64,000 nt of DNA from Actinomycetota bacterium (lineage in GTDB: Bacteria > Actinomycetota > Nitriliruptoria > Nitriliruptorales > Nitriliruptoraceae): positions 186,001-250,000 of the forward strand of contig JAHWKY010000001.1 of NCBI GenBank assembly GCA_019347575.1, written 5' to 3'. Under the pieces are notes generated by a model. The model was not told where the DNA came from and made no database searches. It was given only the letters and a program-made list of their open reading frames with translations. Numbering within the stretch: position 1 is the first letter of the stretch; each line of letters starts with the position of its first letter. The translations under genes and the position numbers were made by a program. This document shows positions 25,701 to 48,191 of this stretch, piece by piece.

Positions 25701-28700
25701 CCCAGTGGTCGGTGAGACGCTGGCGGTTGACCAGGAACAGCGTGTTGGTCGCGGGATCGAGGTCCGCGACGGCGGGCAGACTCCCCTCGTGCCCGGTGCT
25801 GGTCACGAACGGCGGGATCTGGCACTCGCCCAGACCGATGATCTTGGCGCTGCGGACGTGGTAACGGAGCACGTAGGGCAGTGGCGACGAGGCGCCGTTG
25901 TAGCCCGAGACCTGCAGCGTGTAGAAGCCGCTCTCGCCCGAGGTGGCGGTGATGTGGATGGATTCGGATCCGTCGCCGCGTCCTGTGCTGACCGCCCGGA
26001 TGCCCTGCTGCTCGAACGGCGCGGAGTCGGTGGGGACGTCCTGCAGCGTCTCGGGGTCCGTCAGGTCGTCCGAACTGGTCGACTCGGGGATCACGTCGTT
26101 GTCGTTGTAGGGGTTGTCGTTGTAGGGGTTGTGGTTGTAGGGGTTGTGGTTGTAGGGGTTGTCGTTGTAGGGGTTGTGCTCAAGAGCGGTCTCACTCGCC
26201 CCGCTCAGCACGAGGTCGTAGTCACCCGGCAGGTGGCTCAGCACAATCCGCAGCTCCGACCCGGCGGCCGGCACGGGGATCAGCCAGGTGTCGAGTTCGT
26301 GTGGCTGCGCGATGTGACTGAAGCTGAGCGCGTCGGGCGTCAGGGTCGTCCACGTCGACGGGTCACCATCGGGCGCGTTGGGCTCGAACCGCTCCGTCAC
26401 CGTGACCGGAGCCGACTCGGCCGTGTTCGCCGTGTAGGCGTTCCCCAGCGCATCGGTCCCGGCGACCTCCGCGGCCGCCGTGCCGGTCTCGAGCACGTGT
26501 CCGGGGTTGGCCTGCAGCGTCAGCGTGACGCTGTCGCCGGCCGCGACGTACAGGTCGGTCGTGAAGGTCAGCAGCTGCCGCGTCCCGCCCACACGGGGCG
26601 GGTCGACCGGTTCGGTGAGGCGCGCCGCACCGTCCGCGGTCACCAGGGCCGCGGAGCCGGGCACGAACGCGAAGCCGCGCGGTAGCGTCACGGCGAGCTG
26701 GGGGTCGACCAGGGAGGAACCTGTCGTGGAGGGCGTGGTCGTCAGTGAGTAGGTGACGAAGGGCCCGTCCTGCGCGTAGCTCGACAGCAGCAGCGAGCCG
26801 AGATCGGCGTTCTCGAAGGGGAGCGCGTCGAGGTCGTGGGTCGTGCCGCGCAGGGCGTCGTGGACGGTCGCGCGGGCGCGTTCCGCGGCAGGCAGCGCGG
26901 CGAGCAGATCCGCGAACGTGGTACCCGCCACGAACGCATCCGCTTCCGCGACCTGCCCGAGCGTGCCGCAAGCGGTGCACGACACCAGCGCGGCGAGCTC
27001 GCCCGCGACGGGAGTGGACGCCCACGGTGTCAGGCGCGGGTCGAAGCCGGGGAACGGCGCGGCGATCTGCATCGACACGGCGCCCAGGGGCGAGGCGGGC
27101 GCAAGTTCGATGCGGTCGAACGTCAGCGCATCCCAGGGGATGGCGGTCATGTCGAGCCCGAGCAGGTTGACGGTCACCAGGGTCGAGGTGTTGGGGTCCA
27201 GGCCGTGTTCAGCGCAGCTGACCCCGTTCGTCGCCAGTAACGTGCACCACGCCTCGTCGCCGGGCAGGCGCAGGTTCGCGAGCGGTGTGCTGCCGAGCGC
27301 TGCGGCGCCGCCGGTCACGACCCCGAGCGGGCTGGCATCGACATCGATGTCCAGGTGGGTGATCGGGGGCGACGGGGGCGGGGCGAGGCGCATGATGTCG
27401 AGCAGCGTCAGGTCCTGGATGGCGACACCACTCAGCGATGGGCTGGCGGCGGGGTCGGAGAAGGCGGCCTCGGTGTGGTCGTCGATCACCGCCTGCCACC
27501 CCCCGGGCCGGACCATGCCGACGCTGGTGAGCGGCGTGGTCGCGAGGACCGAGATCGGGGCGCCGAACAGGAACGAGCTCGCGTTCGCAGGATCGTCGTG
27601 GTAGGTCCGCGACGCGTCGACCGGGGAGGTGTTGAGCGTTCCTGCGAGCAGCGGGTTGCGGTCCGTGTAGGGGTTGTCGTTGTAGGGGTTGTCGTTGTAG
27701 GGGTTGTCGTTGTAGGGGTTGTCGTTGTAGGGGTTGTCGTTGTAGGGGTTGTCGTTGTAGGGGGATGCGGCCAGATCGCCTCCCGAGAAGGACAGCTCGG
27801 CGATCGGCAGGGACTCGATCGGGATGCTGCCGACACCGGCGGGCACCTCGTTCCGGTCCGCGGTGAGACCCACCGAGGCGATCTCGACGGGGTCGCACGA
27901 GGTCAGGACGGTCTCGACGGACGCGGTGTTGTTGGTCTCGTCCTCCTCGACCACCACGTCGTCGGCGTCGACCGTCAGCTGGAGCTGCGCGCGGCCATCG
28001 TGCCCGTCGAGCGCAGCCGCCGGGATGGCGAGGTCGACCTGCTGCCGCACCTGTTGTCCGGGGCCGAGGTGGCCCAAAGCGATGCGGGCGAGCGGCTCGG
28101 TTGCAGGCCCCGCCACCAGCGTCACCGTGAAGTGGGAGGGTCGGATCTCGGAGCCGCCGCTGTCGGTTATCGCGTTCGTGATGGTCACGTCCGCGGAGAA
28201 CGTCCGGTCGGGACAGATGTGGCGGGGGGCAGCTTCGATGGAGCCGGTCAGGTCCGCGGTGGATGGCGTGAGCGTGCGGAAGCCGAAGTCGGCGTTCTCC
28301 CCGAACGCCCCGTCTGCCGCGACGCCAGCCGCGTAGAGGTCCGGCGAACCGGCCGGGCACTCGTTGCTCAGCAGCCCCGGCGAGCAGGTCATGCGCCAGG
28401 CCAGGATGAAGGGGGAGTCCGCGATCGGCCCGAGGACCTCGAGCACGTACTCCTGGCCCGCGTTCGCGGCGACCGCCGCGGGCAGGCCGACGGTGACGAA
28501 GCGGGTGCCGGCGGTCGTGCTGCCCTCCGTGCGGCCCTGCTCGACGAGTCCGCCGCTGCCGTCCGGCTCGTAGAACACGACGGTGAAGGTGCCGTCGAAG
28601 TTGGCGGTCAGGCACAGCTGCACGTGCGACAGCGCGCCCCGCGACGGCACGAACGACTGCCGTTGCTCCGCCCCGAGCAGCGAGCGCGTTCCCGGGAAGT

Positions 28701-36440: not shown

Positions 36441-37703
36441 CTACTCCGCGCTGGTGAAGGTCGCGAGCGGGACGTCGACCTCCTCGGGGGTGAGCGCCCC
36501 GTGCATCCCGGGCAGGCGGCCACCGAAGGGATCCCAGCGACGGTGCACGAGGGCCGCGTCGCCGTGGGCGACGGCGATCACGTCGCCGATCCGGAGCACC
36601 GCCTCCGGGCGGGGCTCCGGTCCGAACCAGCCCGCCGCGACCGCGTCCTCGCGCGTCACGACCGCGAAGCGGTCGGACAGCTGCTCCCTCCAGGCCGTGA
36701 GGACGTCGGCTTGTGCGCCGGGGACGACGTGCAGCTGACGGACCCGAGCCTCTCCGGCGATCACGCGGACGCCGGCCTCGAGATCGGGCTCGTCGTCGAG
36801 TTCGATCCAGTCGGTCTCGTCGATGGCGAGCATCCCGTGATCGGCGGTCACGACCAGCAGCGTGCGCTCCGGCAGCGACCCAGCTGCGCGTTCGACCGCG
36901 TGATCGGTCGCCCTCAGCGCCGACAGCCACGCGTCGCTGCCGGGGCCGTGGAGGTGCCCGACGGTGTCCACCGCACCGTGATGCGCGTACACCAGTGCAC
37001 GAGATGACCGTCCGGCCGCGTCAAGGGCGTGGCGGAGGGTGATGTCGGGACCGTCGGCGCCGACGAACGACCCGCCGCGAAGGGCGGCTCGCGTCAGGCC
37101 CGAAGCCACGAACTCGCCGAGCGACACGACGGTCGCGTCGATGTCCGCCGCGGTCGCCGTCTCGAAGATGGTCGGTAGCGGCTGGAACCTCTCCGGGATG
37201 ACCTCGGCCCGGGCATCCTCGGCCTCCGTCGGCGGACCCCACTGCCACGTCAGCAGGTTGAGCGGGCGGTCGGAACGAGGCAGCCCGACGGTGTACCCGA
37301 GCAGCCCGTGACGCCCCGGCGGCTCCGCGGTCGCCAGCGAGGTGAGCGCGGTCGCGGTCGTGGACGGGAACACCGAAGTCAGCGCCCGCTCGCTGTGTGC
37401 CGCGAGGAACGCAGCGGCGTCACGGTGGGCGTGCAGCTGCGCCGCACCGACACCGTCGAGGACGAGCACGATCACGCGGTCTGCGGCAGGCAGCCGTAGC
37501 GGGTCGTCTCCGCGGTGGACCCCGACCGCGTGCAGGAGCGCGCGTCCCAGATCCGCCAGCGACGCGCTGCCGTACGCCGGCAGGCGGGGCGCAGCAGGAG
37601 AGACCGCGGTCTCAAGTAGCCCGGAGGGCGGGAGACCAACAGACTCGGTCTCAAGTAGCCCGGAGGGCGGTAGACCAACAGACTCGGTCTGGGGTTCCAA
37701 CAT
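36441..37703 (-). CDS. Alkaline phosphatase/nucleotide pyrophosphatase superfamily protein
   Basis: A 420-residue metal-dependent phosphodiesterase or phosphatase. Metal and nucleophile motifs are VLVLDGVGAAQL (Asp), SVFPSTTATALTSLATAEPPG (Thr nucleophile region), YAHHGAVDTVGHLHG (Asp/His), VVTADHGM (Asp-His) and GMHGAL (His). Proteins of this set lack a signal peptide and their substrate is not known. The N terminus is odd: after MLEP come two copies of a 13-residue unit (TESVGLPPSGLLE) encoded by the hairpin repeats at 37608-37676. The family sequence PRLPAYGSASLADLG resumes after that. The repeats therefore appear to have been inserted in frame. The gene diverges from murI. Confidence 0.85.
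   Translation of the reverse strand: MLEPQTESVGLPPSGLLETESVGLPPSGLLETAVSPAAPRLPAYGSASLADLGRALLHAVGVHRGDDPLRLPAADRVIVLVLDGVGAAQLHAHRDAAAFLAAHSERALTSVFPSTTATALTSLATAEPPGRHGLLGYTVGLPRSDRPLNLLTWQWGPPTEAEDARAEVIPERFQPLPTIFETATAADIDATVVSLGEFVASGLTRAALRGGSFVGADGPDITLRHALDAAGRSSRALVYAHHGAVDTVGHLHGPGSDAWLSALRATDHAVERAAGSLPERTLLVVTADHGMLAIDETDWIELDDEPDLEAGVRVIAGEARVRQLHVVPGAQADVLTAWREQLSDRFAVVTREDAVAAGWFGPEPRPEAVLRIGDVIAVAHGDAALVHRRWDPFGGRLPGMHGALTPEEVDVPLATFTSAE
37608..37687 (-). repeat. Hairpin repeat family, locus 1: two 39-bp units inside a coding region
   Basis: Two 39-bp units (37610-37648 and 37649-37687) differing by one base. Each holds a 30-bp core: outer stem GGTCT/AGACC, spacer CAAGTA, inner stem GCCC/GGGC around a GGA loop, spacer GGG or GGT. 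Cores at 37608-37637 and 37647-37676. The layout matches the elements near 41342, 45396 and 48133, but both stems differ with pairing kept. Confidence 0.85.
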
Positions 37704-37826: not shown

Positions 37827-38654
37827 GTGAACGAGCGACCCATCGGGGTCTTCGACAGCGGACTCGGCGGCCTGACGGTGCTGCAGGCGCTGGCGGACCT
37901 GCTGCCCACCGAGCGGCTCATCTACTTCGGTGACACCGCGCGCTACCCCTACGGGTCCAAGCCGCGCGACGTCCTGCGCCGCTACTCGACCCAGATCGCC
38001 GACGCACTGCTCGAGCGTGACGTGAAGATGATCATCGTCGCATGCAACTCAGCGTCCGCTGCGGCGCTCGACCTGCTGCGCGAACGCCACCCGAAGGTCC
38101 CCATCATCGGCGTCGTCGAGCCCGGCGTCCGCGCCGCGGTCAGGGCGACGCGGTCGGGGCGCGTGGGGGTCATCGGCACCCGCATGACCGCCGACTCCAA
38201 GATCTACGAGCTCACGGCGCAGCAGCTGCACGCCGAGCTCGACCTCGAGGTCGTGGCGTGCCCCGGGTTCGTCGAGCTCGTCGAGAGCGGCGACACGGAC
38301 TCCGATCACGCCCGCAGGATCGTCGCCGCCGGCCTGGCGCCCCTCCGCGATGCCGCGATCGACACACTGGTTCTCGGCTGCACGCACTACCCCCTGCTGG
38401 CCCGGACCATCAAGGAGACGGTGGGCCGGGGCGTGGTCCTGGTCTCGTCCGCAGACGAGACCGCGTTCGAGGTCCGCGACATCCTGGGGCGGACCGGCTG
38501 GGCGCGGGGCGGGCTGGCCGGGCCCGGTTGGCGCCGTTTCCTCACCTCCGGCGATCCGCCCACGTTCCGCAGGCTAGGGCGCCGTTTCCTCGGGGCCGAC
38601 CTCGGTCGCGTCCAGGCCTGGAACTGGGAACTCGCGGCGGAGACGGAGGGTTGA
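37827..38654 (+). CDS. murI: Glutamate racemase
   Basis: Interconverts L- and D-glutamate for peptidoglycan in the cytosol. The 275-residue product starts with PIGVFDSGLGGLTVL; the two catalytic cysteines are Cys73 in VACNSASAAA and Cys185 in LVLGCTHYPLL, and IYFGDTARYPYG is the usual substrate loop. GTG 37827 gives MNERPIGVFD; there is no good ribosome site, so the message may be leaderless. It is followed after one base by the thioredoxin-fold lipoprotein gene and then the HAD gene, in one probable operon. Confidence 0.96.
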   Translation: MNERPIGVFDSGLGGLTVLQALADLLPTERLIYFGDTARYPYGSKPRDVLRRYSTQIADALLERDVKMIIVACNSASAAALDLLRERHPKVPIIGVVEPGVRAAVRATRSGRVGVIGTRMTADSKIYELTAQQLHAELDLEVVACPGFVELVESGDTDSDHARRIVAAGLAPLRDAAIDTLVLGCTHYPLLARTIKETVGRGVVLVSSADETAFEVRDILGRTGWARGGLAGPGWRRFLTSGDPPTFRRLGRRFLGADLGRVQAWNWELAAETEG

Positions 38655-38655
38655 G

Positions 38656-39294
38656 GTGAGGGCCGGAACAGGGAGCGACGTGGCGGGGACTCGCACCGCG
38701 GTGCGCACCATCGTGGCGCTCGCCGCCGTCCTGGCCACCGCGTGCAGTGGGGGCGGGGACGCGATCGTCGAGACGACCGCGACCGCTTCCGATGTAGCGG
38801 GTGGGACCGCGCCGCCGGCGACCATCGCCCCGACCGGAACCACGCCCCCCGCGACCCCGACGGCCACCGATGCACCCGCGGCAGCGGTACCGGAGGCGCT
38901 CGACTTCACCGCCCCGGCCGTCGCCGGCGGTCAGGTGGTCGGGGCGGAGTTCGTCGGTGAGGCGGTGGCGCTGTGGTTCTGGGCGCCCTGGTGACCTACG
39001 TGCAACCGGGAGGCTCCCGAGATCGCGCAGTTGGCGCGACGCTACGACGGAGAGGTGACCTTCATCGGGGTCGCCGGGCACGACACCATCGGTCGGATGA
39101 AGGAGTTCGTGGAGCGCCACGATGTCGGCCACTTCCCCCACGCGGCGACCGAGGATGGCTCGCTGTGGGCGAGGTGGGAGGTCGCCTACCAGCCTGCGTT
39201 CGTCCTCATCGACCCTGAGGGCGAGATCGTGTTCAAGGGCGTCCGCCCTGACCTCGCCGACCTCGAGGCCGAGCTCGGAGCGCTCGCGTCGTGA
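38656..39294 (+). CDS. Thioredoxin-fold lipoprotein, probable selenoprotein (UxxC)
   Basis: One frame is open from GTG 38656 to 39294 apart from a single TGA at 38992-38994. The 212-residue product has a lipoprotein signal (LAAVLATAC), a Thr/Pro/Ala-rich linker, and a TlpA/DsbE-like thioredoxin domain from about residue 85. The active site reads [20 protein letters not shown]. The TGA (residue 113) stands where the nucleophilic cysteine of CxxC belongs and Cys116 is the partner. Downstream is complete, with the cis-proline in YQPAFVLID and an intact end. Reading TGA as selenocysteine gives UPTC. A hairpin fitting a bacterial SECIS follows at 39007-39019. It would be an extracytoplasmic thiol-disulfide oxidoreductase. 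Alternatives are a nonsense mutation or a sequencing error of TGC. It lies 1 bp after murI and overlaps the HAD gene by 4 bp. Confidence 0.85.
38992..39019 (+). promoter_or_regulatory. In-frame TGA with putative bacterial SECIS hairpin
   Basis: TGA at 38992-38994, then CGGGA (39007-39011), loop GGC (39012-39014), TCCCG (39015-39019). This gives a five-base stem with a three-base apical loop whose first base is G, 17 nt after the TGA. Known bacterial SECIS elements are small hairpins just downstream of the UGA with a G in the first positions of the loop, recognised by SelB. The match is by eye, without a folding calculation. Confidence 0.65.
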
Positions 39295-39884
39295 GCATCC
39301 GGGTGGTGCTGTTCGACGTGATGGACACGCTCGTCCGCGACCCCTTCCGCGAGGCGCTCGAGGCTGCGACCGGCCGTCCGGTGCGCGAGATCCTGGCGGC
39401 CCGCGATCCGCGGGCGTACCCGCGCTTCGAACGCGGCGAGATCACCGAGGCCGAGTACTGGGCCCACTACACCGACGCGGGGTTCGTCGTGGACGTGGCG
39501 GCCTTCCACAACGCCCGTCGCTCCGGCTACCGCTGGATCGAGGGGATGCGCGAGCTGCTCGACGACCTCGCCGGCGTGGTCCGCCGCATCGGCGCCACCA
39601 ACTACCCGGACTGGGTGAACGAGCTCACCGACGGGATGCTCGCCGGCTTCCTCGACCAGGTCGTGGCTTCGTACGAGGTCGGGGCGCGCAAGCCCGACCC
39701 GGAGTTCTACCTCCGCGTGCTCGACGTGGTCGGGGCGGAGCCACACGAGACCTACCTCGTGGACGACCGCGAGGTCAACGTCGAAGGCGCGCTCGAGGCC
39801 GGTCTCGCCGCGCACCACTTCACCGACGTGGCTGCGCTCCGGGCCGCCCTCGGTCAGCACGTAGAGGCAGTTCGAGGCGACTGA
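39291..39884 (+). CDS. HAD-superfamily hydrolase
   Basis: A 197-residue haloacid-dehalogenase-type phosphatase. Motif I is [11 protein letters not shown] with nucleophile Asp9, motif II lies in [10 protein letters not shown], motif III is the lysine in [14 protein letters not shown], and motif IV is [15 protein letters not shown] small alpha-helical cap (about 15-80) is inserted after motif I. It probably dephosphorylates a small sugar or nucleotide phosphate. The GTG overlaps the stop of the thioredoxin-fold gene as GTGA, so the two are coupled, yet no functional link is known. Its last 65 bp overlap the opposite-strand gene ending at 39820. Confidence 0.9.
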
Positions 39885-41338: not shown

Positions 41339-41341
41339 TGC

Positions 41342-41449
41342 AACGTGATAGTGCTCAAGCAGCGAAAGCGGTAGCACAACCTGATAGTGCTCAAGCAGCG
41401 AAAGCGGTAGCACAACCTGATAGTGCTCAAGCAGCGAAAGCGGTAGCAC
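41342..41449 (+). repeat. Hairpin repeat family, locus 2: three 36-bp tandem units before ilvE
   Basis: Units 41342-41377, 41378-41413 and 41414-41449. The second and third are identical and the first differs by one base. Each contains a 27-bp core with outer stem GTGCT/AGCAC, spacer CAAGCA, inner stem GC/GC around a GAAA loop, and spacer GGT, joined by AACCTGATA. The array fills the leuB-ilvE gap and ends 19 nt before the ilvE ATG, which keeps its own AGGAG. Confidence 0.9.
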
Positions 41450-45395: not shown

Positions 45396-45455
45396 GTGCT
45401 CAAGTAGCGCAGCGGTAGCACGATGAGGCGTGCTCAAGTAGCGGAGCGGTAGCAC
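45396..45455 (+). repeat. Hairpin repeat family, locus 3: two copies touching the FAH-family start codon
   Basis: Cores at 45396-45421 and 45430-45455, each 26 bp: GTGCT-CAAGTA-GC-GCA or GGA-GC-GGT-AGCAC. The second ends at 45455 and the ATG of the next gene is 45456. The usual ribosome-site position is therefore inside the hairpin and no AGGAGG-like sequence is present. Confidence 0.9.
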
Positions 45456-48102: not shown

Positions 48103-48132
48103 CGCCCCGCCGACCGGAGCCCGACATGTCGC

Positions 48133-48191
48133 GTGCTACCGCTTCGCTACTTGAGCACTCAGGTTGTGCTATCGCTTCGCTACTTGAGCAC
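48133..48191 (-). repeat. Hairpin repeat family, locus 4: two copies ahead of gltX, inverted
   Basis: Cores at 48133-48158 and 48166-48191, in the opposite orientation to locus 3 relative to the downstream gene: GTGCT, ACC or ATC, GC, TTC, GC, TACTTG, AGCAC. The second ends two bases before the GTG of gltX, so again the ribosome-site window is filled by the element. Confidence 0.9.

Follow-up and report, generated by a model that had tools for sequence, protein, structure and literature searches.

The window, by which we mean the whole 64,000-nucleotide stretch of DNA analysed, contains a reading frame that starts with a GTG codon at 38656 (an alternative GTG lies at 38680) and is open to its terminal stop TGA at 39292-39294, except for a single in-frame TGA at residue 113 (Table 1). 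In the read-through translation the active site reads WFWAPW-U-PTC. Translation thereby confirmed the first-pass annotation, which had described a frame with one TGA at the first Cys of a CxxC motif. Its proposal of one TlpA/DsbE-like protein extending across the TGA was also borne out, as the read-through translation matched PF00578 (AhpC-TSA/TlpA-type domain) above the cut-off (54.2 bits, 1.8e-14) and contained the cis-Pro motif YQP. The gene is coupled to both neighbours, as had been noted: it starts 2 nt after the stop of the racemase gene and shares a 4-nt overlap with the HAD gene.

Table 1. Features at and around the interrupted reading frame (window coordinates).
Feature	Position	Strand	Remarks or basis
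Putative selenoprotein gene, TlpA/DsbF-like UxxC thioredoxin-fold lipoprotein	38656-39294	+	212 aa including Sec113
In-frame TGA, predicted Sec113, residue 1 of UxxC	38992-38994	+	Translation and homologue alignment
Predicted resolving Cys116 of UxxC, codon TGC	39001-39003	+	Translation; invariant in homologues
cis-Pro180 codon (YQP)	39193-39195	+	Invariant in homologues
N-terminal signal/lipobox region, Cys30 last	38656-38745	+	Signal peptide by inspection; Cys30 conservation
Upstream neighbour, Asp/Glu racemase (murI-like; glutamate racemase)	37827-38654	+	Homologue near TGA homologue in three same-family genomes
Downstream neighbour, HAD-like hydrolase	39291-39884	+	Adjoins TGA homologue in four same-family genomes
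Predicted bacterial SECIS, stem TCGCGC/GCGCGA, loop AGTTG	39023-39039	+	Published model; covariation
Hairpin of the first-pass annotation, CGGGA-GGC-TCCCG	39007-39019	+	Weak; conserved REAP codons overlap it; unlikely to be the main SECIS

Across the homologues with a TGA, the gene neighbours vary by lineage (murI/HAD, CrcB/ABC1 or PFK). Since they differ between lineages, the gene context points to no pathway, and a conserved operon partner was rejected. In eight same-class genomes (G047, G055, G042, G048, G051, G037, G060 and G050), the TGA gene and selA share a contig, 22-65 kb apart; we dropped proximity to selA/selB as evidence, this linkage being too loose.

Two kinds of repeats were seen elsewhere in the window. 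Short palindrome-like repeats of the form CTCAAGYAGC...GCGGKAG lie in or adjoining intergenic gaps at 37607-37690, 41341-41449, 45399-45452 and 48129-48191, in tandem runs of two or three with a period of 34-39 nt. Eight copies occur in the window as compared with none expected by chance, and the repeats were also found at two other loci of the same genome (L012 and L015). Near-perfect 15-nt tandem repeats, GTTGTCGTTGTAGGG, occur at 26098-26177 and 27666-27763 in five to six copies each, and likely encode a repetitive segment.

Conservation of the TGA codon and the selenocysteine machinery

A first search of 120 relatives led to 26 fetched loci holding a homologue with exactly one TGA. In all 26 the TGA fell at residue 113 of the alignment and the second Cys was retained, while the 84 non-TGA homologues, many of them from a scan with Cys-favouring patterns, all had TGC or TGT at this codon. 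A broader set, 396 genomes from the phylum, gave 77 with a match at 1e-15 or better, and 43 of these 77 had a single TGA; the five new loci checked from this sample again carried it at the residue-113 codon. Overall, 31 of 31 TGA loci examined base by base had exactly one TGA, at this codon, and 94 other aligned homologues had TGC or TGT, in agreement with the alternation between Cys and TGA that the first-pass annotation had proposed to look for. Internal stops among the listed homologues were always one TGA (29 genomes in the first search, 43 in the wider one, about 50 in all), no TAA or TAG was found inside any listed homologue, and the further frame disruptions that the annotation had named as evidence against its reading were not seen. 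In the tree, the TGA homologues did not form one clade and the label required at least 4-5 changes, a scatter suggesting that Sec and Cys have been swapped repeatedly. dN was lower than dS 3' of the TGA in eight of eight pairs tested: purifying selection acts on this part of the gene. As a separate observation, one locus (L158; G208:C154:60406-61671) carries Cys-type and Sec-type copies in tandem, forming a natural Sec/Cys pair.

Profile searches of the organism's own assembly (G000; 4.89 Mb, 120 contigs, 98.8% complete) detected SelA (396 bits) and SelB (277.6 bits in all), and the genome also has a tRNA-Sec (selC) scoring 76.8 bits as compared with a gathering score of 47. Of the sel genes for which the first-pass annotation had suggested a search, selA, selB and selC were thus present, but SelD gave no match over the cut-off in this 120-contig draft. 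All but one of the 25 other TGA genomes have selD (nine of those 24 selD genes having a TGA of their own), and we take its absence here to be a probable assembly gap. We found a second predicted selenoprotein, FdhA, encoded at G000:C26 (L128:3249-6548, - strand) beside selA/selB, which a formate dehydrogenase beta subunit also adjoins. Its in-frame TGA at residue 191 (ARI-U-HSS, U191) is followed by a canonical SECIS hairpin, GGTGCCC-GGTCT-GGGCACC, whose loop, GGUCU, matches the E. coli fdhF SECIS. The presence of the Sec machinery, together with FdhA and its SECIS, indicates that the organism very probably decodes Sec. Among the 26 TGA genomes first checked, SelA fell below the cut-off in three and SelB in three, and each genome has at least one Sec-specific component. 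In one genome (G050:C20:345545-346607), the SelA match is in two abutting pieces, neither SelB nor tRNA-Sec was found over the cut-off, and the homologue has a TGA; this pattern may stem from a frame error or from decay of the Sec system.

A covarying hairpin 3' of the UGA

A published model of the bacterial SECIS specifies a loop of 3-9 nt with G in the first two positions, a stem of 4-16 bp, a spacing of 16-37 nt and an energy of at most -7.5 kcal/mol (PMC13188914). The hairpin at 39023-39039 satisfies this model, with 6 bp, its loop 34 nt after the UGA, and an energy of -9.2 kcal/mol. When pairs are numbered as bases after the TGA, pairs 30-44, 32-42, 33-41 and 34-40 covary across the 31 TGA loci, with compensatory changes from C-G to U-A at 30-44, from C-G to G-C and A-U at 32-42, from G-C to A-U and U-A at 33-41, and from C-G to G-C at 34-40. 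Pair 32-42 is canonical in 25 of the 31 loci as compared with 17.7 expected, and canonical pairing exceeded that of shuffles at all four pairs, an excess that was not found at these pairs in the 94 Cys loci. The wobble positions track their pairing partners, as where GTT GCA replaces GTC GCG. With relatedness ignored, a Mann-Whitney test gave p 1e-14 for the best GU-loop hairpin score in TGA loci (15.2) against that in Cys loci (4.3). In a synonymous-codon shuffle (300 shuffles, relatedness likewise ignored), the window hairpin gave p 0.003, and the median p was 0.013 among TGA loci as against 0.98 among Cys loci. An Rfam scan of the window returned two tRNAs and no SECIS family. The first-pass annotation had also suggested folding the region with RNAfold; the stability of 38986-39040 as a whole was not above expectation (z -0.13), so that single-sequence folding is no proof of a SECIS.

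The +35 hairpin is missing from nine TGA loci (families f1 and f27), where a 4-bp hairpin with a GGTC loop at +27 (CCGC-GGTC-GCGG or CCTC-GGTC-GAGG) is all that is seen; singly, this hairpin is no better than shuffles. One locus (L044) has a 7-bp AGTTG hairpin at +17. These varied places suggest that the SECIS may have moved along the coding sequence between lineages.

The first-pass annotation had proposed a different hairpin, at 39007-39019. This hairpin does exist 12 nt after the TGA, but did not hold up as the best SECIS candidate. That it is the working SECIS of the selenoprotein, alone or jointly with 39023-39039, seems unlikely to us, even though its G-first loop lies 17 nt after the UGA and hence inside the 16-37 nt range, TGA loci form stronger hairpins at this position than Cys loci do (p 1e-9), and two distant homologues (L044 and L047) have a 7-bp hairpin there. 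Its core is dictated by conserved Arg-Glu-Ala-Pro codons, its pairs 13-25 to 17-21 show no covariation, its energy of -5.5 to -7.0 kcal/mol misses the -7.5 threshold, and the competing hairpin covaries; in the synonymous-codon shuffle it gave p 0.085. We regard the 39023-39039 hairpin as the most likely working SECIS.

Three other accounts of the TGA were weighed. It might act mainly as a selenium-dependent switch, such that a shortage of Se would give a truncated product and downstream effects, rather than having been selected for a catalytic gain. The 4-nt overlap with the HAD gene could tie downstream translation to read-through, and Cys homologues perform the same job elsewhere; however, this coupling is unconserved, most TGA homologues having other neighbours, and the TGA is found solely at the nucleophile position, which makes the switch very improbable. 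We give hardly any credence to a sequencing error, or to the idea that a chance TGC-to-TGA nonsense change has made a pseudogene out of a gene for a Cys-type TlpA/DsbF protein. A TGA is one base from TGC, Cys homologues are common and intact ones are also present elsewhere in the same genome, but a chance change does not fit the occurrence of TGA, never TAA or TAG, once and at the same codon at 31 loci in different genomes, nor the purifying selection 3' of it and the covarying SECIS confined to TGA loci. That the UGA is decoded as Cys or Trp, through natural suppression or an altered genetic code, is just as hard to credit: any sense reading would leave the frame open, but both murI and the gene itself terminate at TGA, the genome has tRNA-Sec, SelA and SelB, and a SECIS-like hairpin lies 3' of the UGA. 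On the basis of codon conservation and machinery, we consider it highly likely that 38656-39294 encodes a selenoprotein in which the UGA at 38992 is read as Sec. What speaks against this reading is the missing selD, the lack of SelA or SelB over the cut-off in some TGA genomes, the TGA loci without the +35 hairpin and the scatter of TGA in the tree.

Predicted protein and its likely function

In the predicted protein, an N-terminal hydrophobic stretch leads to Cys30 and is followed by a linker rich in Thr, Ala and Pro; the thioredoxin-fold domain that comes next has the [U/C]xxC motif at a helix start and a cis-Pro. Cys30, Gly91, Trp112, U113, Cys116, Glu119, Pro121, Gln179 and cis-Pro180 are invariant in 24 TGA homologues, a set that appears to comprise the lipid-anchor Cys and a complete thioredoxin active site. 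The protein's lipobox, LATAC, departs from the ideal form in having Ala at -3, and a hydrophobic stretch precedes Cys30. The earlier claim of an exported UxxC selenoprotein lipoprotein is thus supported by the machinery, the TGA/Cys exchange, purifying selection, the invariant Cys at the lipobox position and the covarying SECIS. An AlphaFold2 model was confident over the domain, with a pLDDT of 90 or more for 133 residues. Its top solved match was M. tuberculosis DsbF (3ios; Z 23.5, rmsd 1.3 A over 133 residues, 41% identity), followed by M. tuberculosis DsbE (Z 22.0, 38% identity), both ranking above ResA, and a sequence search agreed (DsbF 3e-31, DsbE 1e-26). The protein is most likely a UxxC extracytoplasmic thiol oxidoreductase.

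VKOR had no match over the cut-off in six TGA genomes and was not found in the organism's own genome, in which three DsbD_TM proteins are present. In G019, the closest TGA homologue, a weak DsbD_TM frame lies immediately upstream. Because of these three observations we favour a CcdA/DsbD-like protein as the most likely membrane partner, as a best guess. In the mechanism that we propose, SelB with Sec-tRNA-Sec would bind the SECIS hairpin inside the coding sequence, and the ribosome, as conservation and machinery suggest, would insert Sec at the UGA rather than terminate. The product would be exported and probably lipid-anchored via Cys30. In its TlpA/DsbF-type thioredoxin domain, with the active site U113-P-T-C116, Sec113 would attack and Cys116 would resolve, in thiol/disulfide exchange with extracytoplasmic proteins. 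More tentatively, and with somewhat less than even confidence, we propose that DsbF-type lipoproteins containing Sec form a family spanning the actinobacteria, in which Sec and Cys would have been exchanged repeatedly, the SECIS would have moved (loop near +17, +27 or +35), and Sec would serve extracytoplasmic disulfide exchange in organisms lacking VKOR.

Such a gene would be cut in two at the TGA by gene finders, and NCBIfam lacks a model for the present family, so that misannotation of a widespread extracytoplasmic actinobacterial selenoenzyme is probable. Since Sec and Cys versions both occur naturally (the tandem pair at L158, and DsbE/DsbF), the added value of Sec can be tested directly, and the TGA loci offer a natural series for the shift of a coding-region SECIS under a constant protein.

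Relation to known systems

M. tuberculosis DsbF (Rv1677, 3ios) and DsbE/MPT53 (Rv2878c, 1lu4) share with the present protein the fold, the domain limits and an actinobacterial, extracytoplasmic TlpA-type thioredoxin domain, whereas their nucleophile is Cys and that of the present protein is predicted to be Sec. Both M. tuberculosis proteins act as oxidases on substrates in vitro, and a DsbD-like partner has been proposed (PMC3853704). The ResA, CcmG (DsbE) and TlpA reductases resemble the present protein in fold, CxxC position, probable membrane-anchored extracytoplasmic location and likely CcdA/DsbD partner, but have about 20-26% identity to it and use Cys as the nucleophile. The genes adjoining the putative selenoprotein gene include none for cytochrome c maturation. 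ResA and CcmG reduce their substrates, and for the present protein we regard oxidation, as by M. tuberculosis DsbE/DsbF in vitro, and reduction, as by ResA/CcmG, as about equally probable.

Among selenoproteins, the UGC-containing TlpA selenoprotein (NCBIfam NF041054, WAxxUGC_long) is likewise a TlpA/ResA-like Sec protein. It has a UGC motif and a longer profile, whereas the present protein has UxxC (UPTC) and scored 19.9 bits, below the cut-off of 300; 11 of 24 members gave a weak match. A thiol-disulfide isomerase-like selenoprotein (cd02966, UxxC) was first seen in Sargasso Sea data, as four marine metagenome sequences (PMC1088965), and is also listed in Table 1 of PMC13188914; MGB1650493.1 is a listed protein of this type. 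The present protein has in common with it the TlpA-like domain family, the UxxC motif and a bacterial SECIS, but differs, when compared by description, in being a predicted actinobacterial lipoprotein near DsbF. In the part of the literature covered, we found no paper naming a TlpA selenoprotein family in actinobacteria. Since UxxC TlpA-like selenoproteins are already listed, the present family would be an uncurated, lineage-specific addition to a known class, one that appears from its sequences to recur across many actinobacteria with an unusually clear SECIS signal.
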